NCBI RefSeq assembly: GCF_037094465.1
Contig: NZ_CP146609.1
Location: 1,675,501 to 1,739,500 of the forward strand
DNA: 64,000 nt
Direction: 5' to 3'
Source of the DNA: Pseudodesulfovibrio sp. 5S69
Lineage (GTDB): Bacteria; Desulfobacterota; Desulfovibrionia; Desulfovibrionales; Desulfovibrionaceae
How positions within the stretch are numbered: the stretch's first letter is position 1; each line of letters begins with the position of its first letter. This document shows, piece after piece, positions 27,705-43,023 of this stretch. The position numbers and the translations under genes are program-made. The notes beneath the pieces were generated by a model. The model was given only the letters and a program-made list of their open reading frames with translations. It was not told the origin of the DNA and did no database searches.

Positions 27705-27866
27705 TTTCGCCGTCCCCCCCAATTAAAGTGTTCAGGCTCCACCCTGGACAGAGAACAGCAAGAAGCCTGCCACCGGGGGAATGGCGGCGGGCGCAAACCG
27801 GCATAGCCCTTGGGAGGCCAAAGGAATTGCAATAACGGTACGTTGCGGTGGGGAAAACGAGTGTCT

Positions 27867-27887
27867 AAAAAACGTGGATTATCCACG
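27867..27887 (-). terminator. Intrinsic terminator after the GT39 gene
   Basis: On the minus strand CGTGG pairs with CCACG (loop ATAAT), followed by TTTTTT, about 40 nt after the stop codon. Confidence 0.6.
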
Positions 27888-27927
27888 CGCAGAGGGGGCG
27901 CGTATCCAGGAAAAATGGACCGGGGGG

Positions 27928-29520: not shown

Positions 29521-29604
29521 GAAGTATATTATTCGGCGGAAGGTGGCAAGTTGAGGGTGCGGGGGGCGGCTGTCGGAAGCCTGTTCCGAGCGCGGGGTAC
29601 CAAG

Positions 29605-29641
29605 TCGCTGTCGGGCGCTGTGCACCCGAGTCGCTCCAAAG
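29605..29641 (-). repeat. Short hairpin repeat family B, copy 2
   Basis: Read on the minus strand: TTTGGAGCGACTCGGGTGC then ACAGCGCCCGACAGCGA. It matches 7365-7400 at nearly every position, including the TTTGGAGCGA flank. One stem change (A to G) keeps pairing through a G-U pair. Confidence 0.6.
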
Positions 29642-29685
29642 GGAAAAGAAAGATGGTTTTTGGCCTGGTATCGAGATGAAAGGTT

Positions 29686-30279
29686 TTACCGCGCCTGGAA
29701 ACAGATGAGGTTGGCATGGCCGGTGTCCAGGGTCGAGGCGTGGCGGAAGCCGTGGGGCTCCACCATGGCGCGGACGTCGCCCTCGGCGAGGCGGGAGTGG
29801 AGCGGCGGGCCGAAATTCGCTTCGACCTTTTTGCATTCGAGCACGGCCAGGGTGCCGTCGGCCCGCAGGACGCGGTGGAATTCGCGGAACATTTCGGGCG
29901 CGCGGTCGCGGACCATCTTGATGTGCAGGACCGTGGACAGGAAGATCGCGTCCACGGAGTGCGGGTCGATGGGCAGGGTGTCGGTGATGTCCCCGGCAAA
30001 GGCGGTGATGGGGGCCTCGCCGGGCCGGGCGGGCAGTGCATTCAGTGCGTCCGTGGACAGGGCGATGTTGTCCACGGCGATGACCCGGCCTGCCTCGCCG
30101 AGCAGGCGCGCGGCGTACAGGGAGTATTCCCCGGCCCCGCACCCGGCATCGAGGAAGACCTGTCCGGGTTCAAGCCCAAGATGCGCAAAGACCATAGCTG
30201 GCTCCTGCAACCAGAAGCTGGTCGGGCCATACCCCTTGCGGGATGTCTCGTCCGTTTGCGGCGATGTCGTGTTACTCAT
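29686..30279 (-). CDS. Class I SAM-dependent methyltransferase
   Basis: A 197-residue Rossmann-fold methyltransferase. Motif I is FLDAGCGAGEYSLYAARLL (about residues 43-61), followed by the acidic VIAVD end of strand 2, and motif post-I and DAIFLSTVLHI. Such small stand-alone enzymes (UbiE/arsenite-like) cannot be assigned a substrate from sequence. It lies between the trp operon end and the GT39 gene on the same strand. Confidence 0.85.
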   Translation of the reverse strand: MSNTTSPQTDETSRKGYGPTSFWLQEPAMVFAHLGLEPGQVFLDAGCGAGEYSLYAARLLGEAGRVIAVDNIALSTDALNALPARPGEAPITAFAGDITDTLPIDPHSVDAIFLSTVLHIKMVRDRAPEMFREFHRVLRADGTLAVLECKKVEANFGPPLHSRLAEGDVRAMVEPHGFRHASTLDTGHANLICFQAR

Positions 30280-30332
30280 TTAACTAAGGTAATATCGAGC
30301 GGATACAACGTCAATCACCTGAGCCCGCCCCC

Positions 30333-30442
30333 CCCGCGCAGCGGCTATAAAAAGTTTAGGAAAGGAGAGGGGATGGGCGGGGGGAAGGAGAGGGACAACC
30401 CTTTTCAAAGGGTTTCCCTCTCCTTCCCCGGCCGCCGGAGGC
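30333..30442 (-). repeat. Intergenic repeat family A, copy 4 (full length)
   Basis: Read on the minus strand from the trpA stop: GCCTCCGGCGGCCGGGGAAG, a hairpin around CCCTTTGAAAAGGG, a long purine-skewed spacer, then TTTCCTAAACTTTTTATAGCCGC. It begins 4 nt after the trpA stop codon. Confidence 0.82.
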
Positions 30443-30446
30443 ACAC

Positions 30447-31208
30447 TTACTTCCACGGCTCCATGAAGGAGTCGCTGGAGTGGCCGGATTCGATGTGGGA
30501 GATGAGGGCGGAGCCGAACACGGCGGCGTCCATGAGGCCTCCGAATTCCTTGAGCTGGTCCGGGTGTTTGATGCCGAAGCCGAGCGCCACGGGGATGTCG
30601 AAGACTTCCTTGGCCTCGGCCAGTTTTTCCTTGATGCGCGCGGGCAGGGACTCGCGCTGGCCGGTGGTGCCGAGCACGGACACGAAGTAGCAGAACCCCT
30701 GGGCGCCGTCGGCGTAGAGCCGCATGCGTTCCTTGGTGGTGTTCAGGCCGATCAGGGGGACCAGGGCCACGTTGTGGGGTTCCACGGCGTCCTTGACGAA
30801 CTGCGACTCTTCGAGCGGCATGTCCGCGATGATCAGGCCGGAGACCCCGGCGGCCTCGCAGTCCGCGCCGAACTTGTCCAGGCCGTACTGGTAGACCGGG
30901 TTGAGGTAGCCCATGAGCAGCAGGGCGGCCTTGAACTGCCCTTTGCGCTTCTTGAGTTCGGTCAGAATCCAGGTCAGGTTGATGCCGTCTTCCAGGCATT
31001 TGAGGGACGCCTTTTCGACCACCGGGCCGTCGGCCACGGGGTCGGAGAAGGGCATGCCGATCTCGATGACGGACGCGCCCGCCGCGTCGAGCTCCTCCAT
31101 TTCCTTCCAGAATTGCTCGCGGTTCGGAAACCCGGCGGGCAGGAACGGAATGAGCCCGACCTTCCCTTTGGCCCGAGCCTCTTCTATCTTCACTTGCATT
31201 TTATTCAT
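30447..31208 (-). CDS. trpA: Tryptophan synthase alpha subunit
   Basis: A 253-residue TIM-barrel enzyme that splits indole-glycerol phosphate to indole, which passes to TrpB. The catalytic Glu is in VIEIGMPFSDPVADGP (about residue 50) and the Asp in IIADMPLEES. The phosphate-binding GFGIKHPDQL is also seen. It is the last gene of the aromatic supraoperon. AAGGA lies 8 nt before the ATG. The 108-bp gap to trpB holds a repeat-A copy, so this junction is looser than the others in the operon. Confidence 0.97.
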   Translation of the reverse strand: MNKMQVKIEEARAKGKVGLIPFLPAGFPNREQFWKEMEELDAAGASVIEIGMPFSDPVADGPVVEKASLKCLEDGINLTWILTELKKRKGQFKAALLLMGYLNPVYQYGLDKFGADCEAAGVSGLIIADMPLEESQFVKDAVEPHNVALVPLIGLNTTKERMRLYADGAQGFCYFVSVLGTTGQRESLPARIKEKLAEAKEVFDIPVALGFGIKHPDQLKEFGGLMDAAVFGSALISHIESGHSSDSFMEPWK

Positions 31209-31229
31209 CTTATTATCCTTTTTTCGGCG

Positions 31230-31311
31230 CCCCCGCTTGCGCGAAGCGCACCCAAAAAGTTTTGGAGATCCCTAAGAACCTTTTTCAAAAGGTTCTTGGG
31301 CCGCCGGAGGC
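31230..31311 (-). repeat. Intergenic repeat family A, copy 5
   Basis: Read on the minus strand from the trpB stop: TGCCTCCGGCGGCCCAAGAA, a hairpin AAGAACCTTTT/AAAAGGTTCTT, then CCAAAACTTTTTGGG and a GCGCTTCGCGC end. It lies between trpB and trpA inside the operon, so it must be read through. Confidence 0.8.
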
Positions 31312-31316
31312 ATTCT

Positions 31317-32480
31317 TTACAGAATCTGGTCGAGTATCCCCAGATCCTTGTCGCCGCGTCCGGACAGGCAGACGAGCACGGACTTGCCTTGCAGCTTTTC
31401 CCGGTTCTCGATGGCGTAGGCCACGGCGTGGGACGATTCCAGGGCCGGGATGATGCCTTCGCGCCTGGAGAGGGTCTTGAAGGCGTTGATGGCCTGGGCA
31501 TCGTTGATGGTCGTGTAGTCCACGCGGCCGATGGCGTCGAGATGGGCGTGCTCCGGGCCCACGCCGGGGTAGTCCAGGCCGGGCGCGATGGAATGGGAGG
31601 GCTCGATCTGGCCGTCCTCGGTCTGGAGCAGCTTGCTCATCATGCCGTGCAGCACGCCGTCGGTGCCGTGGTCGATGGGCGCGGAGCTGTAGCAACCCGG
31701 CTCGCCGGTTCCGGCGGCCTCGACGCCCACGATCTTGACGGACTCGTCCGGGACGAAATTGTGGAACATGCCGATGGCGTTGGACCCGCCGCCCACACAG
31801 GCCACGACCACGTCGGGCAGGTTGCCGTCGTTGCGGGCCATGAACTGCTCGCGCGCCTCCTTGGAGATGATCTGCTGGAACTCGCGGACCAGGGTGGGGA
31901 AGGGGTGCGGCCCGGCGGCGGTGCCGAAGCAGTAGTGGGTGGTTTCCTGGTCGGACAGCCAGCGGCGCAGGGCCGCGTTGATGGCGTCCTTGAGGGTCTT
32001 GGTGCCCGACTCCACGGCCACGATCTCCGCACCCATGAGGCGCATGCGGCCTACGTTGGGGGCCTGGCGGACCACGTCGGTGGCGCCCATGTAGATGACG
32101 GCCTTCATGTCGAGCATGGCGGCGGCGACCGTGGTGGCCACGCCGTGCATGCCCGCGCCGGTCTCGGCCAGGAGCACGTCCTTGCCCATCATTTTGGCCA
32201 GCAGTCCCTGGCCCAGGGTGTTGTTGATCTTGTGCGCGCCCGAGTGGTTGAGGTCCTCGCGCTTGAGCCAGAGGTCCAGGCCGAGGTCCTTGGACAGGTT
32301 CGGGCAGTAGGTGATGGCCGACGGGCGGCCCACGTTTTCCTTGAGCATATTGGTGAAGCGGGTCTGAAACTCCTCGGTGGGGAGGATGGTCTTCATGGCC
32401 TCTTCAAGCTCGATGAGCGGCGGCATGAGCAGCTCGGGGATGAACTGCCCGCCGAAATCGCCGAAGTATCCTTTCTTCAT
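31317..32480 (-). CDS. trpB: Tryptophan synthase beta subunit
   Basis: A 387-residue PLP enzyme that joins indole and serine to make Trp. The PLP lysine lies in the motif HSGAHKINNTLGQ (about residue 84), and the phosphate-binding loop CVGGGSNAIG and the QTEDGQI segment are typical. This is the TrpB1 type that pairs with TrpA, not the TrpB2 type. It starts 9 nt after the trpF stop. Confidence 0.97.
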   Translation of the reverse strand: MKKGYFGDFGGQFIPELLMPPLIELEEAMKTILPTEEFQTRFTNMLKENVGRPSAITYCPNLSKDLGLDLWLKREDLNHSGAHKINNTLGQGLLAKMMGKDVLLAETGAGMHGVATTVAAAMLDMKAVIYMGATDVVRQAPNVGRMRLMGAEIVAVESGTKTLKDAINAALRRWLSDQETTHYCFGTAAGPHPFPTLVREFQQIISKEAREQFMARNDGNLPDVVVACVGGGSNAIGMFHNFVPDESVKIVGVEAAGTGEPGCYSSAPIDHGTDGVLHGMMSKLLQTEDGQIEPSHSIAPGLDYPGVGPEHAHLDAIGRVDYTTINDAQAINAFKTLSRREGIIPALESSHAVAYAIENREKLQGKSVLVCLSGRGDKDLGILDQIL

Positions 32481-32489
32481 GATAGATCC

Positions 32490-33116
32490 TTATTCCATTT
32501 CCGCGAGAATCCGGAAGACTTCCCGCAGTTTGGTCTCGTCCTTGATGCCCGGTGCCTTTTCCACGCCGGAATTGATGTCCAGGCCGGAGGGGTGTACGGC
32601 CAGCGCCTCGCGGATGTTATCGGGCCCGAGGCCGCCAGCAAGGAACCAAGGTGTTTGTATTTCGATAGGTTGCAGCATGGCAAAATCAATGGACTTGCCG
32701 GTGCCGCCCTGGCCTTTTCCGCCCGCGTCCAGGAGAAAGTGGCCGCAGACCTCGGCGTAGTTTTCGAGGTCCCGGAGCAGTGCCCGGGGCGAGGGATAGG
32801 TGTCGGGCCAGAAGGCCCGGATGACCCGGTCGGGGCCGATCTTCCAACAGAAGTCCACATCCTGTCCGCCGTGCAGTTGGGCTGCATGCAGTCCGCAACG
32901 GTCCATGGTCTCCAGGACCTCGTCGGCGGTCTGGTTGACGAACACCCCGACCTTGGAGACCTTGCCGGTCTTGACCGAGGCCACGAAGTCCGGGTCCGCG
33001 TTGCGCGGGCTCTTGGGGTGGAAGATGAAGCCGAGCAGGTCCACGCCGAGGCTCACGCAGAGTTCGACGTCCCGCATTCGGGTCATGCCGCAGACCTTGA
33101 CCAGGGGGCGGGGCAT
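32490..33116 (-). CDS. trpF: Phosphoribosylanthranilate isomerase
   Basis: A 208-residue TIM-barrel enzyme for the Amadori step of Trp synthesis. The catalytic Cys lies in VKVCGMTRMRDVELC (about residue 10) and the catalytic Asp in LLDAGGKGQGGTGK. HAAQLHGGQD and the C-terminal GGLGPDNI are also present. The start is separated from the trpC stop by one base, indicating translational coupling. It is not fused to trpC, unlike in enterobacteria. Confidence 0.96.
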   Translation of the reverse strand: MPRPLVKVCGMTRMRDVELCVSLGVDLLGFIFHPKSPRNADPDFVASVKTGKVSKVGVFVNQTADEVLETMDRCGLHAAQLHGGQDVDFCWKIGPDRVIRAFWPDTYPSPRALLRDLENYAEVCGHFLLDAGGKGQGGTGKSIDFAMLQPIEIQTPWFLAGGLGPDNIREALAVHPSGLDINSGVEKAPGIKDETKLREVFRILAEME

Positions 33117-33117
33117 C

Positions 33118-33888
33118 CTACTTGACTCCCGCCAGCTCGGCCAGCTTGGCACCGGGATCATCGGCCTGCATCAGCGAAGTGCCGATGAGGACCGCGTCGA
33201 ACCCCAGGGATGCCATCTCCTCGACCTGGGCGCGGGTCTCCACGCCGCTGGCGCAGATCCACAGCTCGCCGTCGTGCTTCTGCTTGATGAAGCGCCGGCC
33301 CTGGTCGAGGGTGGTGGTCAGGGTGTCCAGGTCGCGGTTGTTGACCTGGATGATGTCGGCCCCGGCCTCGCGGGCGCGGTCCAGGTCGGCCTGGTCGAAG
33401 ATCTCGACCACCGGGGCCAGGCCGGGCATTCGGGCGATGTCGATGAGTTGCTTGAGGTGGGCGGCGTCGTCGCACATGCGGGCGATGAGCAGCACGGCCG
33501 AGGCCGGGCTGCTGGCCGTCATGGCCACCTGGAGCGGGTCGAAGATGAAGTCCTTGCGCAACAGGGGCAGGCCGGGCCCGTTCATCATGAACAGGAAGTC
33601 CGGAGAGCCCTTGAAGTACTGGTGTTCGGTCAGCACGGAGATGGCTGCCGCCCCGTTGTTCGCGTAGGCGTCGGCGAAGTCCAGGGGGTTGAGGTGCTCG
33701 CCCAACACGCCCCGGCTTGGGCTGGCGGGCTTGAACTCGGCGATGATCGCGCCCGGCCCCTTGGCCCGGATGGCCTCGACGAACGAGGGGCGTTCGCCCT
33801 GGTAGACGGCCGGGATGCGCCCGGCCGCGAAGTCCTTGTGCAGCGACTCGATTTCGAGCCGCTTGGCCTCTCTGAATTTATCCAGCAT
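33118..33888 (-). CDS. trpC: Indole-3-glycerol phosphate synthase
   Basis: A 256-residue TIM-barrel decarboxylase-cyclase. Conserved stretches are IIAEFKPASPSRG (catalytic Lys near residue 53), AISVLTEHQYFKGS, LLRKDFIFD (second Lys) and IQVNNRDLDTL. The first 11 bases overlap the end of trpD, so the two are translationally coupled. Confidence 0.96.
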   Translation of the reverse strand: MLDKFREAKRLEIESLHKDFAAGRIPAVYQGERPSFVEAIRAKGPGAIIAEFKPASPSRGVLGEHLNPLDFADAYANNGAAAISVLTEHQYFKGSPDFLFMMNGPGLPLLRKDFIFDPLQVAMTASSPASAVLLIARMCDDAAHLKQLIDIARMPGLAPVVEIFDQADLDRAREAGADIIQVNNRDLDTLTTTLDQGRRFIKQKHDGELWICASGVETRAQVEEMASLGFDAVLIGTSLMQADDPGAKLAELAGVK

Positions 33889-34885
33889 AGGGAAGTCCTT
33901 TTGTCAGTCCTGTATGAACCACGTCGCGGGCGATGTCGGCGCATTCGGCCATGGTGCCCTTGTCCAGCAAGTTGAGGCACCCTGCCAGATTGAGGGCCAC
34001 CATGTCCATCATGGGTGCCGGGCCCTTCCCCGTCAGGATGTCCTTGAGTTTGGCTACGGCATCGTCCTTGCCGTTGACGCGCACGTCCTCGGGGGCGTGG
34101 CGCGGGAAGCCCAGGGAGGCGGGGTCGACCACGGCTTTGTCCATGCGCCCGTCGTCGATGATGTAGCCCCGGTTCACGCCCCAGGTGGTCAGCTCGTCGA
34201 ATCCGCCCGCGCCCGCGAAGATGAGCGCCCGCCTCACGCCGGTCAGGAGCAGGGTCTCGCCCATGAGGAAGAGGCGCTCCGCGTCGCCCACGCCGAGCAA
34301 CTGGTGCGAGGGGCGGGCCGGGTTGGTCAGCGGGCCCATGAAGTTGAACAGGGTGCGGATGCCGAGCTGCTGGCGTACGGGCATGATGTACTTGAAGGCC
34401 GGGTGGTAGGCGGGCGCGAACAGGAAGGCGAAGTGGTATTTTTCGAGCCCCGCGGCGGCCTCATCCGGGGTCTGGTCCAGGGGGATGCCCAGGGCCTCCA
34501 GGGCGTCGGCCGAGCCGCAGGACGAGGACAGGGCGCGGTTGCCGTGCTTGGCGATGGTGTAGCCCATGTCCGCCAGGAACAGGGATACGGCCGTGGAGCA
34601 GTTGAACGAACACTGGCCGTCGCCGCCCGTGCCGCAGGTGTCGATGACCGGCTCGGGCCGATTGCCCTCGAAGCCGGGGATCTTGCGGGCGTGGGAGACG
34701 ACCGCGCGCACGCCCGCGGCCAGGTCGGTGGAGTCCTCGCCCTTGGCGCGCAGCCCCATGAGGAACGCACCGGCCTGGGCCTCGGTCATCTTGCCGTCCA
34801 TGAGTTCGGCGAACATGAAATCGGCCTGGTCGTCGCTCAGGGATTTTCCCTGGGCCAGGATGTCGAGTATTTCAGATATGGTCAT
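33878..34885 (-). CDS. trpD: Anthranilate phosphoribosyltransferase
   Basis: A 335-residue enzyme that joins anthranilate to PRPP. The PRPP-binding glycine motif DTCGTGGDG (about residues 82-90), KHGNRALSSSCGSAD, and the FNFMGPLTNPARP motif are intact. It overlaps trpC by 11 bp and starts 4 nt after trpG. It is a stand-alone enzyme, not fused to trpG. Confidence 0.97.
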   Translation of the reverse strand: MTISEILDILAQGKSLSDDQADFMFAELMDGKMTEAQAGAFLMGLRAKGEDSTDLAAGVRAVVSHARKIPGFEGNRPEPVIDTCGTGGDGQCSFNCSTAVSLFLADMGYTIAKHGNRALSSSCGSADALEALGIPLDQTPDEAAAGLEKYHFAFLFAPAYHPAFKYIMPVRQQLGIRTLFNFMGPLTNPARPSHQLLGVGDAERLFLMGETLLLTGVRRALIFAGAGGFDELTTWGVNRGYIIDDGRMDKAVVDPASLGFPRHAPEDVRVNGKDDAVAKLKDILTGKGPAPMMDMVALNLAGCLNLLDKGTMAECADIARDVVHTGLTKGLPYAG

Positions 34886-34889
34886 GGTC

Positions 34890-35462
34890 TTATCCTTTGA
34901 TGTTCAGGAAGTTCTGCAGAAGCTTGGGGCCTTCAGGGGTGAGGATGGATTCCGGGTGGAACTGCACGCCGTGCCAGGGGCGGTCCTTGTAGCGCAGCCC
35001 CATGATCTCGCCCTGATCGGTACGGGCCGTGACCTCGATCTTGTCGGCCGCCTTTTCGGCCGGGACGATGAGCGAGTGGTAGCGGCAGACCGTGAACGGG
35101 GAGGGCAGTCCCTTGAACACGCTCCGGCCCTCGTGGAAGACCTCGGAGGTCTTGCCGTGCATGATCCGCTCGGCGCGCTCCACGGGCGCGCCCGCGAAGT
35201 GCCCCAGGGTCTGATGGCCCAAGCAGACGCCGAGCACCGGGACCTCTTTGGGCAGCCGGGCCAGGAACTCCAGGCAGAAGCCCGCGTTTTGCGGGTTGCT
35301 CGGACCGGGAGACAGACAGACGCGTTCGAGTTCGCCGCTTCCGGCCAGTTCCAGGACCTTCTCGCGGTCGTTGCGGATGACGATCGGGTCGGCGCCGAGC
35401 TGCTGGAAGGCCTGCACCAGGTTGAAGGTGAAGGAGTCGAAATTATCGATCAGCAAAAACAT
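34890..35462 (-). CDS. trpG: Anthranilate synthase glutamine amidotransferase subunit
   Basis: A 190-residue class I amidotransferase giving ammonia to TrpE. The nucleophile Cys80 lies in GVCLGHQTLG, and the His-Glu pair in GVQFHPESI. The N-terminal LLIDNFDSFTFNLVQ is diagnostic. Its first 20 bases overlap the 3' end of trpE, giving strong coupling of the two subunits. A separate pabA role is not indicated by the context. Confidence 0.96.
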   Translation of the reverse strand: MFLLIDNFDSFTFNLVQAFQQLGADPIVIRNDREKVLELAGSGELERVCLSPGPSNPQNAGFCLEFLARLPKEVPVLGVCLGHQTLGHFAGAPVERAERIMHGKTSEVFHEGRSVFKGLPSPFTVCRYHSLIVPAEKAADKIEVTARTDQGEIMGLRYKDRPWHGVQFHPESILTPEGPKLLQNFLNIKG

Positions 35463-36900
35463 CGGTGCCTCCCTTGCCGGTGATGACTTCGAGGATCACG
35501 CGGGCCTTGTTGTTGCATTCGTTCCATTCCGCTTCGGGGTCGGAGTCGTAGACGATGCCGCCGCCGGCCTGCCAATAGCACTGGCCGTCGCGGATCCACA
35601 TGGAGCGGATGGTGATGCCGGTGTCCAGGGAGACGACGTCGTCGTCCAGGCCCAGCCAGCCGATGCAGCCGCCGTAGGGGCCGCGTTCCTGGGGCTCCAC
35701 GTCGGCGATGATTTCCATGGCCCGGATCTTGGGCGCGCCGGACAGGGTGCCCGCCGGGAAGGTGGCCTGGAGCACGTCGATGGCGTCCAGCCCGTCCTTG
35801 AGTTCGCCCCGGACGTAGGAGGTCAGGTGCATGACGTGGGAGAACCGCTCCACGTTCATGAATTTCTCCACGGTCACGGTGCCGGGCTTGGAGATGCGGC
35901 CGAGGTCGTTGCGGCCCAGGTCCACGAGCATGACGTGCTCGGCCCGCTCCTTGGGATCGGCCAGCAGGTCGGCTTCCAGGCGGTTGTCTTCCGCTTCAGT
36001 GTCGCCGCGCCACCGGGTTCCGGCGATGGGCCGGACTTCCAACTGGCCCGCCGCGCTGCGGGCCATCATCTCGGGGGAGGAGCCGAGCAGGGTGGTGTTG
36101 CGGGTCTTGCCCATGGTCGGGCAGTCCGGGAACTTCATGTAGAACAGAAACGGCGACGGGTTGGCCTGCCGGAGCCTGCGGTAGATCTTGAACGGTTCGT
36201 CGGACAGGGGCACCGAGAAGCGGATGGACGGGACCACCTGGATGCACTCGCCCTCACTGATGAGCTCCTTGCAGCGCTCCACCGTGGCCATGTGCGCCTC
36301 CTTGCCGGGGAAGACCGTGGGGGCCCCCGCCTCCGGGGCGTTCAGGTCCGCGCCCCACTGAACCGGGGCGGGCCGTGGGGTCGCGCCTTCGTCCAGGCTC
36401 AGGTAGCAGCAGGAGTGGCGCAGGTGGTCGAAGAGGACCAGTTGGCCGGGCAGGATGAGGCAGGCCTCGGCGTCCTCGGGTTTGCACACGTCCTTGAGCT
36501 TGCGCTCGAACATGCCGGCCGTGCCGTAGCCGAAGTAGCCGTACAGGCCGCGCGTCAGGCCGGGCAGCCCGTCCCTGGGGTTGCCGCCCGTGGTGCGCTG
36601 TTCGATGGTCAGATTTTTAAGGACGGCCTTGAGGCCGGGGAGGTAATCCAGGCCCTCCAGTTCCTTGAGCGGGGCCAGGCGGTCGTCGCCCACGTCCACC
36701 ACCAGCTTGCCGTCCACGGGGTGGAGCATGAGCCTGTAGTCGAAGGCGATGAGGGAGTAGCGGCCGAGCCGCCCGTCCACCTCGGCGGATTCCAGGAGAA
36801 TGCCGGGCTGGTCGCCCACCAGTCCCATGTACAGGGAGATGGTGGTCTGCACGTCGGCAGGCAACCATTTGCCGTGCTGCGTGAGGGTGATTTTCTGCAT
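35443..36900 (-). CDS. trpE: Anthranilate synthase component I
   Basis: A 485-residue chorismate-using enzyme. The N-terminal regulatory segment contains LLESAEVDGRLGRYSLIAFD, with LLES being the usual Trp feedback-binding motif. The catalytic domain has the GTRWRGDTEAEDN, MLVDLGRNDLGRIS and TFPAGTLSGAPKIRAMEII motifs. It is the first gene of the trp half of the supraoperon. AAGGA sits just before the ATG. It lies 164 nt beyond a terminator that follows tyrA, which appears to control its transcription. Confidence 0.96.
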   Translation of the reverse strand: MQKITLTQHGKWLPADVQTTISLYMGLVGDQPGILLESAEVDGRLGRYSLIAFDYRLMLHPVDGKLVVDVGDDRLAPLKELEGLDYLPGLKAVLKNLTIEQRTTGGNPRDGLPGLTRGLYGYFGYGTAGMFERKLKDVCKPEDAEACLILPGQLVLFDHLRHSCCYLSLDEGATPRPAPVQWGADLNAPEAGAPTVFPGKEAHMATVERCKELISEGECIQVVPSIRFSVPLSDEPFKIYRRLRQANPSPFLFYMKFPDCPTMGKTRNTTLLGSSPEMMARSAAGQLEVRPIAGTRWRGDTEAEDNRLEADLLADPKERAEHVMLVDLGRNDLGRISKPGTVTVEKFMNVERFSHVMHLTSYVRGELKDGLDAIDVLQATFPAGTLSGAPKIRAMEIIADVEPQERGPYGGCIGWLGLDDDVVSLDTGITIRSMWIRDGQCYWQAGGGIVYDSDPEAEWNECNNKARVILEVITGKGGTDVFADR

Positions 36901-37063
36901 TGTCTATCCTTCGCAACGCGTGCGTGCGGGGCATGAACCGGCGCACAACCGCGTTCGCTGAAAACGTGTTATTAATGATATGGCCGGGGTATAACCTGCC
37001 ATCCCTTGATCTTCTTGCGGTTTTCCGATTTCTTTCACGTACCGTTCATCCGAGTTCTCCTTG

Positions 37064-37099
37064 AAAAAATGAAGCCGCACCCTGGGTCGGGGTGCGGCT
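37064..37099 (-). terminator. Attenuator terminator between tyrA and trpE
   Basis: On the minus strand AGCCGCACCC (37099-37090) pairs with GGGTGCGGCT (37082-37073) around a 7-nt loop, then TCA and six T (37069-37064). It stands between genes of one pathway, 46 nt after the tyrA stop, and has a competing upstream arm at 37135-37144. Confidence 0.85.
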
Positions 37100-37175
37100 C
37101 CGGTTACTGGTGTAATCGTGTGCCGGGCTCAAGCGCCGCACCCCATTAATATGATTCTTCGTTACGCCACCACCA
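37089..37175 (-). promoter_or_regulatory. Candidate Trp attenuator using the tyrA C-terminus as leader
   Basis: Three consecutive TGG codons of tyrA lie at 37175-37167, and the stop codon is at 37148-37146. Segment A, GGGGTGCGGC (37144-37135), begins one base after the stop. Segment A is a perfect 10-bp complement of segment B (GCCGCACCCC, 37098-37089), which is also the 5' arm of the terminator. Pairing A:B and terminator B:C exclude one another. A ribosome stalled at the Trp codons leaves A free, while one at the stop codon covers A. The pairing is seen in sequence; the regulation is inferred. Confidence 0.75.
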
Positions 37176-37916
37176 CTGGGCCCGGTCGGCCAGCAATTCG
37201 AGGTCGCCGCCCGCGGCCAGGCTGAGGTAGGACATGAATTTGCGGCTGACTTCCTGCAGGAACGGGTTGGCTTCGGAGATGATCTCGAACAGCTCGGTGT
37301 CCTGGGTGAGCATCTTGGCCGCGGAATCGAGCCTGCGCCGGAAGGAAGGGGTGACGAACTCCCGGATGCCGTCCACGTCGCGGGCGGCGGCCAGGAAGGC
37401 AACGGTGGAGGTGTAGTTCAGCCCCTGGATGTAGGCCATGGCCCGGTCGTGCTCCGCGGGAGTGGAGTCGAAGCAGGTGTAGCCGCAGCGGGTGAACAGG
37501 TCGGCGACCGATGCGGCCGCGTCCGCGTCCCGGTCGCGGCCGGGCATGACCGCCACCTTGGGTTCGAACCCTTCGGGGATGACCGCGCCGAACAGGGGGT
37601 GGGTGCCGACCACCGGCCCTTCGTAGCGCCTGAGCATGGCCTTGACGGGCATGACCTTCACCGAGCCCACGTCGCACAGGATGGTCGGTGCGGCGAGGTG
37701 GGGCGCCATGCGGTCGAGCACGGCGGCCATGGCCGTGACCGGCACGCTGAGCAGGAGCAGGTCGCAGCCGGACAGCGCGGCGCGCACATCCTCGTCCGAG
37801 GACTTGCGGCCCAGCCCGGTCACGGTCAGGCCGAGTCCGGCGAAGTCCGCCGAGAAGCGGCTGCCCATCTGCCCGTCCGCACCCACGATGGTGATGTGGT
37901 CGATTCCCTTTGTCAT
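37146..37916 (-). CDS. tyrA: Prephenate dehydrogenase (TyrA), Trp-rich C-terminus
   Basis: A 256-residue NAD(P)-dependent oxidative decarboxylase of prephenate for Tyr synthesis. The Rossmann motif is ITIVGADGQMGSRF (about residues 8-21; the usual GxGxxG appears as GADGQMG). The substrate-region VGTHPLFGAV and the catalytic-type HDRAMAYIQGLNY follow. No chorismate mutase or ACT domain is fused. The C-terminus reads AQWWWRNEESY and lies just before a terminator. It sits 20 nt after aroA, as in other aromatic clusters of this group. Confidence 0.92.
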   Translation of the reverse strand: MTKGIDHITIVGADGQMGSRFSADFAGLGLTVTGLGRKSSDEDVRAALSGCDLLLLSVPVTAMAAVLDRMAPHLAAPTILCDVGSVKVMPVKAMLRRYEGPVVGTHPLFGAVIPEGFEPKVAVMPGRDRDADAAASVADLFTRCGYTCFDSTPAEHDRAMAYIQGLNYTSTVAFLAAARDVDGIREFVTPSFRRRLDSAAKMLTQDTELFEIISEANPFLQEVSRKFMSYLSLAAGGDLELLADRAQWWWRNEESY

Positions 37917-37936
37917 GATTTTCCGGTTCGTTCCGT

Positions 37937-39277
37937 TTAGCCGGTGATCTTCTTCCACTCTTTGAAGAAGTCCGGGAATGATTTGCCCACGCAAGCCGGA
38001 TTGTCAAGCGAGACCTTGATCCCGGCCAGCTCGAACAGGGACATGGACATGGCCATGCGGTGGTCGTTGTAGGTCATGAAGTCCACCTCGCGGCCGCGCG
38101 GCAGGGGGGCCGGACGGATGATCAGCGAGTCGTCGGTGGTCTCGGTCTCGCACCCTGTGCGGGCCACTTCCGTGGCGCAGGCGGCCAGCCGGTCGGTCTC
38201 CTTGACGCGCAGATGGGCCACGTTCCCGATGGTCGTCGGAGTGGCGGCGAAGGCGGCCACGGCGGCCACGGTGGGCACCAGGTCCGGGCAGCGGCCCATG
38301 TCCACCTCAATGCCGCGCAGCCTGCCCGGCTCCACCAGGATGCCGTCGAAATTGACCTTGATGGAGGCCCCCATCTGGCTGAGGATGTCCATGATCGCCC
38401 GGTCGCCCTGGAGCGAATCGGCGGCCAGCCCCTTGAGCAGCACCGGGCGTTCGCCCACGGCCCCGGCGGCCAGGAAATAACTGGCGTTGGACCAGTCGCC
38501 CTCGACCTGGTACCCGGTGTTCTCGTAGCCGGTGGGCCGGACGATGAAGCGGACCTTGCCGGGGGTCACGCTCTTGATCGAGCGCCAGGGCACGGCCTTC
38601 CAGTCGCGCCCCTCGCGGACCTCCACGGTGAAGCCCGCCTTGAAGTCCTCCATGATCCGCAGGGTCAGGGCCGCGTACGGCCAGGATACGGCCTTTTTGC
38701 CGGTCACGGTGATGGTGATCTCGTGGTCGGCCATGGGCGCACCCAGGAGCAGGCCGGACAGATACTGGCTGCTCTCCTCCAGGGTGATCTCCACCTCTTT
38801 GCCCTTGAACCCCCCGGCGGTCATGACGAAGGGCAAAAAACCCGCCTCGCCCTCGAAGTCGAATTTGGTTCCCAGGCCGGACAGGGCGGTGGTCAGCTCG
38901 GCCATGGGGCGTTCGTGCATGCGCGGCGCACCGTGCACCCGGAAGGTCCCCCGGCCCGCTGCGGCCACGGCGGTCATCAACCGGCAGGTGGTCCCGGACT
39001 CGTGCATGAACAGCTCGTGCGGGGCCTCGTCCTTGTGCTTGCCGTCCGCGTTGCCCCCCTTGGGCCCGTCCTCCATGCCCCTGACCACGAGTTTGCCGTC
39101 CTTCTCCTCGATGGACGCGCCGCAGGCGGTCAGGCAGCCCCGTGTGCGGGTGATGTCGTCGGAGTCGAGGACCGAGGATATCTCGGACACCCCCTTGGCC
39201 AGGGCGGCCGCGATCAGGGTGCGGTGGGACAGTGACTTGCTGGCCGGGACGTTGACGATGATCGGGTCCTTGGTCAT
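37937..39277 (-). CDS. aroA: 3-phosphoshikimate 1-carboxyvinyltransferase (EPSP synthase)
   Basis: A 446-residue enzyme that joins shikimate 3-phosphate with PEP. Typical motifs are the N-terminal PASKSLSHRTLIAAALA (residues 11-27), the SGTTCRLM segment (usually GNAGTxxR, here ESGTTCRLM), and RVKETDRLAACATEV and YNDHRMAMSMSL. A charged insert of about 17 residues (GPKGGNADGKHKDEA) interrupts the early part. The start codon overlaps the pheA stop as ATGA, so the two are coupled. Confidence 0.93.
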   Translation of the reverse strand: MTKDPIIVNVPASKSLSHRTLIAAALAKGVSEISSVLDSDDITRTRGCLTACGASIEEKDGKLVVRGMEDGPKGGNADGKHKDEAPHELFMHESGTTCRLMTAVAAAGRGTFRVHGAPRMHERPMAELTTALSGLGTKFDFEGEAGFLPFVMTAGGFKGKEVEITLEESSQYLSGLLLGAPMADHEITITVTGKKAVSWPYAALTLRIMEDFKAGFTVEVREGRDWKAVPWRSIKSVTPGKVRFIVRPTGYENTGYQVEGDWSNASYFLAAGAVGERPVLLKGLAADSLQGDRAIMDILSQMGASIKVNFDGILVEPGRLRGIEVDMGRCPDLVPTVAAVAAFAATPTTIGNVAHLRVKETDRLAACATEVARTGCETETTDDSLIIRPAPLPRGREVDFMTYNDHRMAMSMSLFELAGIKVSLDNPACVGKSFPDFFKEWKKITG

Positions 39278-40377
39278 TGCAGTTCCTCCTGGGTGGGGTA
39301 GGTGCCGAGCACCCGCAGGGTCAGGCACTGGTGGCGGATGTCTTCCAGCACGTCCTCGTACCGGCCGCCGCCCAGGTCGCAGGCCAGGTCGGCGAAAAAG
39401 ACGTATTTCCACTTCTCGCCCCGGAAGGGACGGGATTCGAGCTTGGTCACGTTGATGCCCTGGTGGGCCAAGGTGGTCAGCACGCGGGCCAGCGCGCCCG
39501 GCCGGTTGGGCGTGGTGAACAGGATCGAGGTCTTGTCGCGTTTGTCCTCCTGGGACGGGGACGCGCCGATGATCACGAAGCGGGTCCAGTTGTCCGGCAG
39601 GTCCTCGATGGATTCGGCCAGCACGTTCATGCCGTGCATGTCCGCCAGCTTGCGGTGGCCGATGACCGCGGCGGCCTTCTTGTTCGCCACCACCTCGGCG
39701 GCCTCGGCCGTGGACTCCATGGGGATGGTCGGCACGTCGCGCAGGTGGGCGTGCAGCCAGTCGCGGCATTGGCCCAGCGGCTGCGGGTGGGAGTAGATAA
39801 CCTCCACGTCCTCCACCTTGTCGGCGTGCGAGATGAGGCAATGGCTGATGCGGCTGAAGACCTCGGCCTGGATGTAGACCTTGTACCTCATGAACAGGTC
39901 CACCACCTGGCCCACGGTTCCCTCGATGGAGTTCTCCAGCGGGATGACCCCCAGCTCTGCCCCTTCCTCGGCCACAGCCCGGAATATCTCCTCGAAATTC
40001 CCCTTGGGCGTCAGCGAGGCGGACGAGCCCATGTGCTCGATGGCCGCGAAATAGGAAAAGGTGCCCTCGGGGCCGAGGTAGACCACGCGCTCGGGTCGCT
40101 GCAGGTGGCGCGACGAGCTCATGATTTCGCGGTAGATGGTCCGCAGGTGCTTGTCCGGCAGCGGGCCGGGCGAGGAACCCGCGATCTTGTCCATGACCTC
40201 CTGCTCTCGGAACGGCTTGTAGATGGCCTCGCCCTTGGCCGCCTTGTACCGGCCCACGCTTAAGGAAACCTCGGCCCGCTGGTTGAGCAGGTCCACGATC
40301 CGCTTGTCCAGCGCGTCGATGGAATCCCGCAGCTCCGCGAGATCGGGGATGTCGTTCTGGTCTTTCATGTCAGCCAT
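39274..40377 (-). CDS. pheA: Bifunctional chorismate mutase/prephenate dehydratase (P-protein)
   Basis: A 367-residue enzyme for Phe synthesis. Residues 10-90 are the AroQ chorismate mutase helix bundle (LRDSIDALDKRIVDLLNQRAEV). Residues 97-275 are the dehydratase (VVYLGPEGTFSYFAA, LGVIPLENSIEGTVG, and the catalytic-type NWTRFVIIG). Residues 285-367 are an ACT domain with the Phe-binding ESRP motif, so feedback inhibition by Phe is expected. It overlaps aroA by 4 bases. A 303-bp gap with two inverted repeat-A copies separates it from the preceding gene. Confidence 0.96.
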   Translation of the reverse strand: MADMKDQNDIPDLAELRDSIDALDKRIVDLLNQRAEVSLSVGRYKAAKGEAIYKPFREQEVMDKIAGSSPGPLPDKHLRTIYREIMSSSRHLQRPERVVYLGPEGTFSYFAAIEHMGSSASLTPKGNFEEIFRAVAEEGAELGVIPLENSIEGTVGQVVDLFMRYKVYIQAEVFSRISHCLISHADKVEDVEVIYSHPQPLGQCRDWLHAHLRDVPTIPMESTAEAAEVVANKKAAAVIGHRKLADMHGMNVLAESIEDLPDNWTRFVIIGASPSQEDKRDKTSILFTTPNRPGALARVLTTLAHQGINVTKLESRPFRGEKWKYVFFADLACDLGGGRYEDVLEDIRHQCLTLRVLGTYPTQEELQ

Positions 40378-40393
40378 ATTGTCTCCAGGGAAA

Positions 40394-40480
40394 GCCTCCG
40401 GCGGCGCCTCTCCGGCGGGGCGTCTCCGACGGCCGGGAACCCTTTGAAAAGGGTTCCCGGACCCTCCTAAATTTTTTGTC
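40394..40480 (+). repeat. Intergenic repeat family A, copy 6
   Basis: GCCTCCGGCGGCGCCTCTCC, then the hairpin GGGAACCCTTT-GA-AAAGGGTTCCC, then CCTCCTAAATTTTTTGTCGC. It faces copy 7 (40569-40680) within the same 303-bp gap between DHQ synthase II and pheA. Confidence 0.78.
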
Positions 40481-40568
40481 GCGCCTCCGGCGGGGCCGTT
40501 TGAGCGCGGTGGTTTTCGCTCATCTTAATAATGTCATGCTTCATTGGACAGTTTTTCTCAACCCCCAC

Positions 40569-40680
40569 CCCGCGAAGCGGCATAAAAAGTTTAGGAAGGG
40601 AAAGGGGATGGAGTCCGGGGAAGGGAAAGGGAAAGCCCTTTTCAAAGGGTTTCCTTTCCCTTCCCGGAGCGCCAAAGGCG
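40569..40680 (-). repeat. Intergenic repeat family A, copy 7 (full length)
   Basis: Read on the minus strand it begins directly at the DHQ synthase stop codon, forms a hairpin of AAACCCTTT/AAAGGGCTTT with long flanks, and ends CTTCCTAAACTTTTTATGCCG followed by CTTCGCGGGG. Copies 6 and 7 have their AAACTTTTT ends towards each other. Confidence 0.8.
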
Positions 40681-41664
40681 CTACCCTTCCTTGATGTCTT
40701 CCTTGATGCGCATGCCGAAGTGGCGTCCGGCCTCGTCGGTGCGCACGAGGATCTTGTCCCCGACCTTGAGGGTGACCACGGACACGGGCTCGCCCTTGTC
40801 CGAGACCACGCGGATGGTTTCGGCGTTCTGCAGGAACACCTGGCCGGTCTTCACCCCGCTCGCGGTCTTGACCTCGGCGGTGATCAGCAGCATGGGCCGG
40901 ACCTCGACCTTGACGCGGCCCACGGTGGCCAGGGAGGTGGCCCCGTCCGCGCCCACGATGAGCACGTCTGTGCCCGCGGAGAGTTCTTCGAGATAGGTGG
41001 TCTTGTCGCCGGGCATCTGGGCGTAGGCGTGGACCGCGCCCGCGTTGACCCGGAAGGGGCGGGCGGCCACGTACGGATTCGATTCGGTCTCGGCGTGGAC
41101 CAGGAAGGAGAAGGCGCTGGAGTTGCCGATGAGCATGCCCTGGCCGCGTTTGAGCATGGAGATGGTGTCCACGCAGACGCGGTGGCCCAGGCCGGTGGGT
41201 TCGATGGCGGTGACGGTGGCGGTCGAAAGTTCCATGGTTCCCTGGGAGAGTTTGAGTTCGGCGACGATCCGCTTCAGGTCGGCGGCCCCTTCGGGCAGGA
41301 CCACGATGGTGTCGCAGCCCCGCTCCAGGATGCCCGCGGCGAGCAGGGCCCGGTCCAATGATTCGCACTCCAGGGCCAGGCTGTCCACCTGGGCCAGGAT
41401 GTTCTCGACCGGAATGATCTCCCAGCCCTTCTTGAGGACCACGTCCTTGCCCGCCTGGATGGCCTTGACGGCCACGTCTTCGTCGGCTTTCTTGGCCAGC
41501 TCGACCACGGGCATGTCCTCGGGGGTGATGACGGTCACGCGGCCGAGCGCCCGGACGGAATCGGCCTGATCCTTCTCGACCATGACGGCGTCCACGCCGG
41601 ATTCCAGGGCCAGGGTGACCAGGGTCTTGTCGAAGGGCACGGATTTGAAGATGACTTTTTTCAT
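40681..41664 (-). CDS. 3-dehydroquinate synthase II
   Basis: A 327-residue archaeal-type enzyme that turns ADH (2-amino-3,7-dideoxyheptulosonate) into 3-dehydroquinate with NAD+. It resembles the MJ1249 family, not AroB: KGWEIIPVENILAQ, VEVRPMLLITAE, GMLIGNSSAFSFLVHAETE and YVAARPFRVNAGAVHAY are characteristic. Its partner, ADH synthase, lies 10 nt upstream. This pair bypasses DAHP synthase and AroB. Length is within the usual bacterial range for the family. Confidence 0.93.
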   Translation of the reverse strand: MKKVIFKSVPFDKTLVTLALESGVDAVMVEKDQADSVRALGRVTVITPEDMPVVELAKKADEDVAVKAIQAGKDVVLKKGWEIIPVENILAQVDSLALECESLDRALLAAGILERGCDTIVVLPEGAADLKRIVAELKLSQGTMELSTATVTAIEPTGLGHRVCVDTISMLKRGQGMLIGNSSAFSFLVHAETESNPYVAARPFRVNAGAVHAYAQMPGDKTTYLEELSAGTDVLIVGADGATSLATVGRVKVEVRPMLLITAEVKTASGVKTGQVFLQNAETIRVVSDKGEPVSVVTLKVGDKILVRTDEAGRHFGMRIKEDIKEG

Positions 41665-41674
41665 GGCGGTTCCG

Positions 41675-42472
41675 CTATGCGTTGAGGTGGTTGAGGGCGG
41701 CTTCGACGGATTCGTCGCCGTGGACGATCATGTTCAGGGCCTGCACCAGGCGGGTGGGATTCTCGTGCTGGAAGACGTTGCGGCCCACGGACAGGCCCGC
41801 GCCGCCCGCCTCCAGGGAGTCGTGCACCATCTGGAGGAACGCCTCGGTGCTGTCGAGCTTAGGGCCGCCCGCGATGACCACCGGGATGCAGCAGGCGTCG
41901 CACACGTGGGCGAAGGTCTCCTTGTCGCCGGTGTAGTTGACCTTGACCACGTCCGCGCCCAGTTCGGTGCCCACGCGGGCGCAGTGGGCCACGATCTCGG
42001 GGTCGTACTCGTTCTTCACCTTGGGGCCGCGGGCGTAGACCATGGCCAGGAGCGGGATGCCCCAGTTGGCCGCCTCGGAGGACATTTTGCCGAAATCGTT
42101 GAGCATGGATGCCTCGGTCTCGTCGCCGAGGTTGCAGTGGATGGATACGGCGTCAGCGCCCAGGCGGATGGCGTCCTCCACGGAGGCGACCAGGGACTTG
42201 GCGTTGGGGAAGGGGGAAAGAGTGGTGGAGGCGGACAGGTGGACGATGAGCCCGATGTCCTTGCCCTGGGCGCGGTGGCCGCAACGGACCAGCCCCTTGT
42301 GCTCGATGACGGCGTTGGCTCCGCCGTCCACGACCCGGCCCACGGCCTCGCGCATGTCGACCAGTCCGTCGATGGGGCCGACGGTCACGCCGTGGTCCAT
42401 GGGGACCACGATGGTCCGGCCTGTGTTGCGGTTGAAGATGCGCTCCAACCTGATGGCTTTACCGATGTGCAT
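41675..42472 (-). CDS. 2-amino-3,7-dideoxy-D-threo-hept-6-ulosonate synthase (ADH synthase)
   Basis: A 265-residue class I aldolase of the MJ0400/FbaB-like family. It condenses aspartate semialdehyde with a 6-deoxy-5-ketofructose phosphate to start the alternative shikimate route. Motifs are [11 protein letters not shown] (catalytic Asp near residue 27), the Tyr in [10 protein letters not shown], and the Schiff-base Lys in VVKVNYTGD. It is the first structural gene of the supraoperon and starts about 60 nt after an attenuator-type terminator. AAAGGAGAG precedes the ATG. A fructose-bisphosphate aldolase role is the main alternative, but the adjacent DHQ synthase II argues for ADH synthase. Confidence 0.92.
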
Positions 42473-42530
42473 GTTCTCTCTCCTTTGAAGTTGTTTGCCC
42501 CAAGGAGCCGGCGGGAGGCCGGCGGCCGGT

Positions 42531-42568
42531 AAAAAAACAAGGGCCGCCGGCTTTCGCCCGCGGCCCTT
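42531..42568 (-). terminator. Attenuator terminator ahead of ADH synthase
   Basis: On the minus strand AAGGGCCGC pairs with GCGGCCCTT around GGGCGAAAGCCG, which itself contains GGC-GAAA-GCC, then G and seven T (42537-42531). It lies between the leader-peptide stop (42605) and the first enzyme gene (42472). Confidence 0.9.
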
Positions 42569-42604
42569 GAAGAAGTTCTTGCTTACGTGTGATCCACCAT
42601 CCGG

Positions 42605-42700
42605 TTACACGCCACCTCTTCCAAGCCCGCGGGCATGGCTAAACCAATACCAAAAATAAAAGTTGGAAAAGTATGCGTTGGAAACGGTGGTGGAGTTCAT
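42605..42700 (-). CDS. Aromatic amino-acid leader peptide of the aro-trp supraoperon
   Basis: A 31-codon ORF too short for normal gene calling. It begins MNSTTVSNA, and residues 10-20 read YFSNFYFWYWF: three Tyr, four Phe and two Trp in 11 residues. The tail is SHARGLGRGGV and the stop is TAA at 42607-42605. Codons 23-25 (GCC CGC GGG) include GCCCGCGG (42634-42627), a perfect complement of CCGCGGGC in the 5' arm of the downstream terminator. This is the layout of a ribosome-stalling attenuator responsive to Phe, Tyr and Trp. No Shine-Dalgarno is seen; the predicted transcript starts at or next to the ATG, so it may be leaderless. Confidence 0.85.
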   Translation of the reverse strand: MNSTTVSNAYFSNFYFWYWFSHARGLGRGGV

Positions 42701-42708
42701 GGGAAATA

Positions 42709-42737
42709 GAGCTACACCCTCAAGGGGCAACTGTCAA
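42709..42737 (-). promoter_or_regulatory. Probable promoter of the aromatic supraoperon
   Basis: On the minus strand a perfect TTGACA (42737-42732) is followed after 17 nt by TAGCTC (42714-42709), a weak -10. The predicted start is near 42702, next to the leader-peptide ATG at 42700. A separate TATAAT at 42785-42780 has no good -35 and is an alternative. Confidence 0.5.
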
Positions 42738-42817
42738 CTAAAACTTTTGTCACGATTCCGAGGAGATAGCGTGTATTACATTATATTCTTGCGACCGGCG
42801 GTCACTTTTTGTCGGTT

Positions 42818-42846
42818 TTGACAATTTTTTACATATTGACAATTTT
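42818..42846 (+). promoter_or_regulatory. Tandem TTGACAATTTT boxes upstream of amtB
   Basis: Two identical 11-bp boxes (42818-42828 and 42836-42846) lie 18 bp apart, about 115-140 bp before the sigma-54 promoter, in a strongly A/T-rich stretch. The distance suits an enhancer site for a nitrogen activator, but the boxes do not match the classical NtrC site. Confidence 0.35.
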
Positions 42847-42957
42847 GAGGTAATTTTCACCCTGCAAAAATGTACTTTATCACAAAAATGAAAAAATATG
42901 GTCACTAAAAAACGGGCGAAAAGCCGGATTTTACGCCAATAGCAATAAAAACCGTGA

Positions 42958-42974
42958 TTGGCACGACTCTTGAT
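42958..42974 (+). promoter_or_regulatory. Sigma-54 promoter of amtB-glnK
   Basis: TTGGCACGACTCTTGAT matches the -24/-12 consensus (TGGCAC-N5-TTGC) except that the final C is A. The predicted start is about 40 nt before the amtB ATG. This fits nitrogen control of amtB-glnK. Confidence 0.75.
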
Positions 42975-43023
42975 AAGAGAGGGGCAGGTTAGAAACGCAT
43001 TCCATTCAAAGAGGAGTATTGCA

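Follow-up and report, generated by a model that had tools for sequence, protein, structure and literature searches.

What decides whether transcription of an aromatic supraoperon continues from tyrA into the trp genes? The stretch of DNA analyzed here (the window) comprises 64 kb of a single-contig, 4.16-Mb Pseudodesulfovibrio-like genome, with a TyrA that is 88% identical to P. mercurii TyrA. A sequence-only reading had assigned the decision to tyrA itself, as a Trp-sensing leader gating the trp genes. The comparisons described below make it highly probable that the tyrA 3′ end and the tyrA–trpE gap constitute a Trp-codon ribosome-mediated transcription attenuator, with full-length tyrA as its leader ORF.

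Organization of the supraoperon

The genes concerned are arranged in an order that matches the one given for the D. vulgaris supraoperon in the portions of the report cited here (PMC1173090).

41675–42472, minus strand: aroA′ (ADH synthase)
40681–41664, minus strand: 3-dehydroquinate synthase II
39274–40377, minus strand: chorismate mutase/prephenate dehydratase
37937–39271 (start provisional), minus strand: aroA
37146–37916, minus strand: tyrA, prephenate dehydrogenase family, 256 aa, the putative leader gene (translation, NCBIfam, PF02153)
35443–36900, minus strand: trpE, the first gene that the attenuator would gate (translation, NCBIfam)
34890–35462, minus strand: trpG
33878–34885, minus strand: trpD
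31317–32480, minus strand: trpB
30447–31208, minus strand: trpA

The part upstream of tyrA (37937–42472, minus strand) was assigned by NCBIfam, as were G, D, B and A among the remaining trp genes (30447–35462, minus strand), where C and F are represented by ORFs only; going by ORF size and order, trpC and trpF are expected between trpD and trpB. The trpE start lies 246 nt past the tyrA stop. For the six solved TyrA relatives, the alignment reaches no further than residue 216 of 256, short of the tail. Among known Rfam elements, T-box included, only two tRNAs reach gathering thresholds in the window.

Attenuator segments in the window

Read on the minus strand, the TyrA C-terminus is WWWRNEESY followed by the stop, and the elements of the module extend from the Trp run to a U tract.

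37167–37175, minus strand: three Trp codons TGG TGG TGG (residues 248–250), the proposed stall site, read directly
37146–37148, minus strand: tyrA stop codon TAA
37135–37144, minus strand: segment A, GGGGTGCGGC, the 5′ strand of the predicted antiterminator (pairing, comparison, A/B covariation)
37120–37128, minus strand: segment A′, GCCCGGCAC, which can form a small hairpin with A (RNA fold)
37089–37098, minus strand: segment B, GCCGCACCCC, common to antiterminator A:B and terminator B:C (sequence, fold, covariation)
37073–37082, minus strand: segment C, the terminator 3′ arm (sequence, fold, covariation)
37064–37069, minus strand: terminator U tract of six T (sequence, terminator consensus scan)

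Re-reading of the minus strand reproduced the positions proposed earlier for A, B, C and the six-T tract. Segment A begins one base past the tyrA stop and is the perfect 10-nt complement of segment B that had been claimed; of 300 mononucleotide shuffles of the sequence in between, none pairs as well (p = 0.003). The intrinsic terminator B:C was likewise recovered: RNA folding of 37147–37060 gives a 12-bp stem (z = −3.2) that none of 200 shuffles equals in stability, and a terminator consensus scan of 27500–43000 ranks it first of 14 terminator-like sites at a loose threshold at which shuffles yield 12.4. The distance from the last Trp codon to A, previously put at about 22 nt, measures 22 nt, or 21 nt if a flanking U·G pair is counted. 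Conservation across relatives is stronger proof than these chance tests on the window alone (terminator z, A:B shuffles).

Folded at equilibrium, the complete RNA adopts the terminator together with the A:A′ hairpin. Because equilibrium favors the terminator, the switch would be kinetic, decided during transcription, and untranslated RNA should terminate. In the window's genus, 15 loci all share GCC as the first three bases of A′, and the predicted A:A′ hairpin is a possible pause or no-translation structure.

Conservation of the module and its association with trpE

We searched 199 genomes of the family (176 with TyrA) and 150 of the order (140 with TyrA), many of them common to both sets, and read the tyrA 3′ ends of 130 of the 176 family genomes and of 40 order loci, giving 170; L031–L041 (possible duplicates of G genomes) and L042–L047 (distant) were left out of the counts. 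Modules were called at thresholds of our own: terminator score 20, at least 5 T in 8, A score 18 and spacing 8–30. The module was found in 101 of the 170 tyrA loci, spread over 25 genera and six families (f1, 70; f2, 10; f3, 6; f4, 8; f5, 6; f6, 1). The other loci comprise 18 with trpE downstream beyond 40 nt and no module called (9 genera), 23 with tyrA and trpE overlapping or at most 40 nt apart (8 genera), and 28 without trpE (10 genera), the last meaning none in the fetched stretch, which at some loci, such as L112, stops at a contig end. Among the 18, L053, L170 and L180 look by eye like threshold near misses, and those of g9, g10 and g13 include none. Looser hairpin thresholds revealed, in trpE-linked L089, L100 and L128 (g9) and L049 (g22), a weak hairpin with no convincing A arm (A-arm p = 0.99, 0.39, 0.25 and 0.07, respectively).

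Relatives that keep the terminator and have lost A or the Trp codons had been named as evidence that would speak against the attenuator. Among tyrA loci with trpE downstream and a terminator called at the module thresholds, A is kept in 101 of 101 and at least three consecutive Trp codons in 99, the other two having two.

The downstream distances bear on an ordinary operon boundary, in which the terminator would end the tyrA transcript, trpE would have its own promoter, and A would be accidental or serve mRNA stability. The terminator stem ends at most 60 nt before trpE in 60 of the 101 loci (18 genera), which leaves little promoter room, although the gap reaches 781 nt in some loci and the window has a promoter-like match at 37002–36975 (9 of 12 positions, judged weak). 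A boundary of this kind is also at odds with the distribution of A, which accompanies the called terminator in 117 of 117 loci with trpE downstream (101 tyrA loci and 16 leader loci described below) versus 0 of 5 tyrA loci whose fetched stretch lacks trpE, and with the covariation of A with B. Since 16% of shuffles pass the A threshold, about 19 of the 117 would be expected by chance; among tyrA module loci, shuffle p is < 0.05 in 89 of 101 and ≥ 0.05 in 12. We regard a simple boundary as very unlikely and retain the attenuator.

Covariation and folding of the arms

The arms vary by genus yet match their own B: A is GGGGTGCGGC in the window, GGGACGCGGC in g29, GAGAAGTGC in g21 and GGGGAGGAGTGCG in g38. 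At the genus level, the A:B score is 25.9 for own arms and 20.6 for exchanged arms, with a maximum of 22.6 over 200 permutations. Pairing with foreign arms remains fairly good owing to a GGGAG-like core common to the arms; the share of foreign A arms pairing at least as well as the own arm has a median of 15%, and more than half pair as well in g7, g27, g36 and g50. The A:B helix is short in some genera, with 7–8 bp, often bulged, in g7. Within the window's genus (15 loci), A:B covariation is 0.109 versus 0.059 ± 0.009, B:C covariation is likewise seen, and L008 alters A, B and C together. The alignment of relatives suggested along with the original proposal shows conserved Trp runs and covarying A, B and C arms.

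Folding was also performed on the RNA that each ribosome position would leave accessible. When the ribosome occupies the Trp run, the stretch still accessible ahead of it as far as the terminator loop forms A:B in 100 of 101 tyrA and 15 of 16 leader loci, a test that is partly circular because loci were preselected for A:B pairing. When the ribosome occupies the stop codon, the RNA outside its reach forms B:C in 98 of 100 tyrA and 14 of 16 leader loci.

Three mutually exclusive segments are, as a matter of general knowledge, also the layout of metabolite- or protein-sensing RNAs (T-box, riboswitch, TRAP-like), which could use the same arms. Across module loci, however, the A–B spacer ranges from 16 to 59 nt with no common aptamer noticed by eye, and A often lies within the translated region; we consider such a sensor exceedingly improbable.

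Geometry and the Trp codon run

Segment A starts 11–23 nt past the last Trp codon in all 101 module loci (SD 2.1; genus medians 13–19), while its start relative to the stop codon drifts from −23 to +8 (SD 8.8). It lies past the stop in the window, across the stop in most of g7 and g29, and inside the coding sequence in g21, g38, g52, g55 and others, where TyrA tails (GGVRQ, GGPAS, SGEVHQ etc.) thus double as RNA arm. As masking by a terminating ribosome needs, 100 of 101 loci have at least half of A between −16 and +14 relative to the stop codon, in agreement with the claim that A lies within the footprint of a ribosome at the stop; the footprint lengths behind this test are general knowledge.

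At least three consecutive W are present in 99 of 101 module loci versus 30 of 69 others and, with genera counted regardless of relatedness, in all 25 genera that have the module versus 11 of the 22 that do not. The residue directly after the run is Arg in 89 of 101 module loci, compared with 13 of the 69 others. By these sequence counts, the Trp run is tied to the module and not exclusive to it; because WWW is kept in 11 of 22 module-less genera, TyrA protein function or inertia probably also maintains the run. Shorter runs were seen in 99%-complete genomes with no or a weak partial TrpE match (W in G042 and G039, WW in G230 and G240), and WWW is kept in G012 and G003 (83% and 89% complete), both without a TrpE match.

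Persistence of WWW in genera lacking the module would suit a translation-coupled attenuator without amino-acid specificity, in which a slow or absent ribosome at the tyrA end sets A accessibility, trp expression follows tyrA translation, and the Trp run is a protein motif; A:B and B:C indeed depend on ribosome position, not on any particular codon. Such coupling leaves the constant Trp-to-A spacing unexplained while the stop drifts, as it does the long runs in every module genus (four W in five loci) and the stand-alone ORFs before trpE, which retain WW or WWW though too short for enzymes. We therefore judge non-specific coupling unlikely. The earlier proposal of tyrA as a Trp-sensing leader gating the trp genes appears sound with regard to A/B covariation, the held Trp-to-A spacing and the module before separate trpE; the part that does not stand is the Trp run as sensor alone.

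Proposed mechanism

The anatomy of the module, its conservation, covariation, spacing and trpE association are direct observations. Ribosome stalling, coupling and Trp dependence would follow from trpL-type logic, under which polymerase arriving from the aro–phe–tyr genes would make A, B and C in turn with a ribosome trailing at the tyrA end. With charged tRNA-Trp scarce, the ribosome would halt at the Trp run; its front edge would stop short of A, at least 11 nt away, so that A could pair with B. If A:B forms before C is made, polymerase would read on into the trp genes. Otherwise a ribosome at the stop would mask A, B:C would form, and transcription would terminate.

Head leader of the supraoperon

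A second leader-like element is located at the head of the supraoperon.

42605–42700, minus strand: head leader ORF MNSTTVSNAYFSNFYFWYWFSHARGLGRGGV closed by a stop, 31 codons, a mixed aromatic (Phe/Tyr/Trp) leader containing YFSNFYFWYWF
42531–42569, minus strand: intrinsic terminator after the head leader (hairpin z = −4.4)

We surveyed aroA′ homologues for the most aromatic-rich short ORF upstream, judged by reading. A similar head leader was identified in 27 of 30 aroA′ loci, with a Tyr run in L241; the exceptions are L225, L235 and L242. Many genomes carry aroA′ paralogues, so not every aroA′ locus need head a supraoperon. Trp codons are present in the head leader of genera with overlapping tyrA–trpE (g25, g41 and g31). 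An aromatic leader followed by a terminator at the head probably indicates two-tier control, general aromatic at the head and Trp-specific before trpE. The aromatic supraoperon genes, about 12 in number, would thereby fall into two tiers, and the arrangement provides a candidate Trp control for sulfate reducers.

Putative Trp leaders at separate trpE loci

Among 21 genomes chosen for a tyrA stretch without trpE, 16 have TrpE. All 16 loci of this first set carry an ORF with WW (2) or WWW (14) within 330 nt upstream of trpE, as exemplified by the stand-alone leader ORF MHVFLTTFLADSFNGWWWRINMRGGDVRA, closed by a stop and followed by a terminator, in L152. The same detector calls the module at 16 of 16 of these loci, with Trp-to-A distances of 12–17 nt and shuffle p < 0.05 in 10 and ≥ 0.05 in 6; the locus that least resembles trpL is L148 (g5). 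From a second group of 16 genomes, assessed by ORF reading only, came 12 usable trpE loci, 10 of them with an upstream WW ORF, including g47 (f4) and a TyrA stub; the ORFs of L246, L250 and L253 are among those that look weak.

The stub belongs to G250 (g55), a draft genome (91% complete) with a full tyrA on contig C36 without trpE. On contig C73, a 66-codon ORF before trpE matches the TyrA end and displays WWW, then after 17 nt an A-like arm, GGGGGAACC, and on visual inspection a terminator.

The order of events was derived by parsimony over a TyrA tree (115 columns, midpoint rooting) and family labels. One 16-row group (support 99/97) unites the rows of genera g40, g42, g6, g26 and g12 with g4 and g39 and with g21 and g38, two genera that have the tyrA module. 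From this grouping and the presence of the tyrA form in all six families, we infer that the leader form is the derived one and originated no fewer than two times. Placing the module label on the tree takes 12 changes, and the module was therefore lost, or gained, many times. Probably, a trp attenuator originated within the tyrA tail or was recruited into it. Later, in two or more lineages, namely the g40/g42/g6/g26/g12 group of one family and g47 of another, the tail would have become detached from the enzyme and survived as a stand-alone trp leader ORF, with the G250 66-codon stub in between; the TyrA tail would thus be shaped by RNA pairing, not enzyme function. This would be a rare example of leader-peptide origin in which both end states and a likely intermediate are extant.

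At the stub locus (L249), an aromatic leader ORF, MNKIIPNHSSLYFFWCFYCNGSCGLGELL closed by a stop, and a terminator directly precede the 66-codon TyrA stub and trpE. The layout looks as if the genes from the head leader to the tyrA tail had been deleted, or pieces duplicated.

Relation to known systems

An attenuator has been predicted for the Desulfovibrio vulgaris aroA′-aroB′-pheA-aroF-tyrA-[trp] supraoperon (PMC1173090). It concerns the same supraoperon and fits the aromatic head leader of the window; the parts of that report cited here cover attenuators ahead of operons and mention none between tyrA and trpE (PMC1173090). TrpR regulons are reported for gammaproteobacteria only in the cited portion of PMC5343134, and the portion of PMC8632094 on cysS and aroF upstream-ORF motifs includes no Desulfovibrio among them.

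In E. coli trpL, as outlined in the portion of PMC1183508 cited, a stall-dependent antiterminator is opposed to an intrinsic terminator. The window resembles trpL, to the extent of that outline, in its consecutive Trp codons followed by an Arg codon, in the antiterminator set against a terminator and in the same predicted sign of response, and unlinked relatives carry the module on a short trpL-like ORF. Its codon run is for the end product of the regulated operon (WWW, 37175–37167), an intrinsic terminator lies between sensor codons and structural genes, the mutually exclusive antiterminator has pairing that is conserved in relatives, and the spacings are those by which a stalled ribosome would free A and a ribosome at the stop would cover it. 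In place of a short dedicated ORF at the 5′ end, which in E. coli encodes a 14-residue peptide, the leader is a 256-codon enzyme gene, tyrA, mid-operon within the supraoperon. Unlike the four-segment E. coli trpL, the window has three segments, A being freed by the stalled and covered by the terminating ribosome.

Chlamydia trachomatis YtgCR offers a second parallel, in that a WWW motif links Trp supply to Rho-independent termination (PMC7755916). As described in the parts of that work cited, WWW lies inside a full-length protein gene with Trp-linked Rho-independent termination downstream; unlike in the window, starvation promotes termination in the same gene, trpBA is affected via loss of the YtgR repressor, and those parts describe no antiterminator arm. 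In the window, by contrast, starvation should prevent termination and the target would be the next cistron.

The window leader is a full-length upstream gene, as in E. coli rph-pyrE, where ribosome position near the gene end decides termination. There, UTP is sensed by polymerase pausing, with no codon run and no amino-acid codons, unlike the amino-acid codon run that would act as sensor here. Precedents thus exist for ribosome-mediated attenuation, for termination linked to WWW (in Chlamydia) and for a full-length gene serving as leader (rph-pyrE). What appears new, having no counterpart in the literature searched, is a biosynthetic enzyme gene as an amino-acid-specific leader for the next operon segment; we found no account of a tyrA-embedded trp attenuator in that literature, the coverage of which excludes most subscription papers. 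These findings suggest that a codon-run attenuator needs no dedicated leader, since sensor codons and an antiterminator arm can both be accommodated in the 3′ end of a working enzyme gene, and that intra-operon attenuators may be missed when sought only as short upstream ORFs.

Additional observations

Four consecutive Trp codons are found at the TyrA end in L178, L179, L186, L187 and L203 (genera g51 and g53). In L004, L006 and L007, extra sequence places trpE 529–862 nt past the tyrA stop, and the attenuator is kept.

A mini-ORF with a good Shine-Dalgarno sequence, ATG-x-x-Thr-TGA-Lys/Arg..., lies between the attenuator and trpE (36972–37049, minus strand). Of 21 loci in the genus, 18 have it at the corresponding position, and it is absent from L016, L018 and L033; outside the genus, 149 family genomes gave one doubtful match. 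In 14 loci, the in-frame continuation past the TGA reads as a basic peptide of 25 residues that is conserved (..KxxENRKKIKGWxVIPRPxH). Comparison of the post-TGA codons of 13 loci with the window revealed 104 synonymous and 45 nonsynonymous differences, with 36, 25 and 131 changes at codon positions 1, 2 and 3, respectively. The ATG..TGA start is kept and the later peptide lost in L004, L006, L007 and L031. The genome of the window contains selB, and the TGA of the mini-ORF may represent readthrough or selenocysteine.
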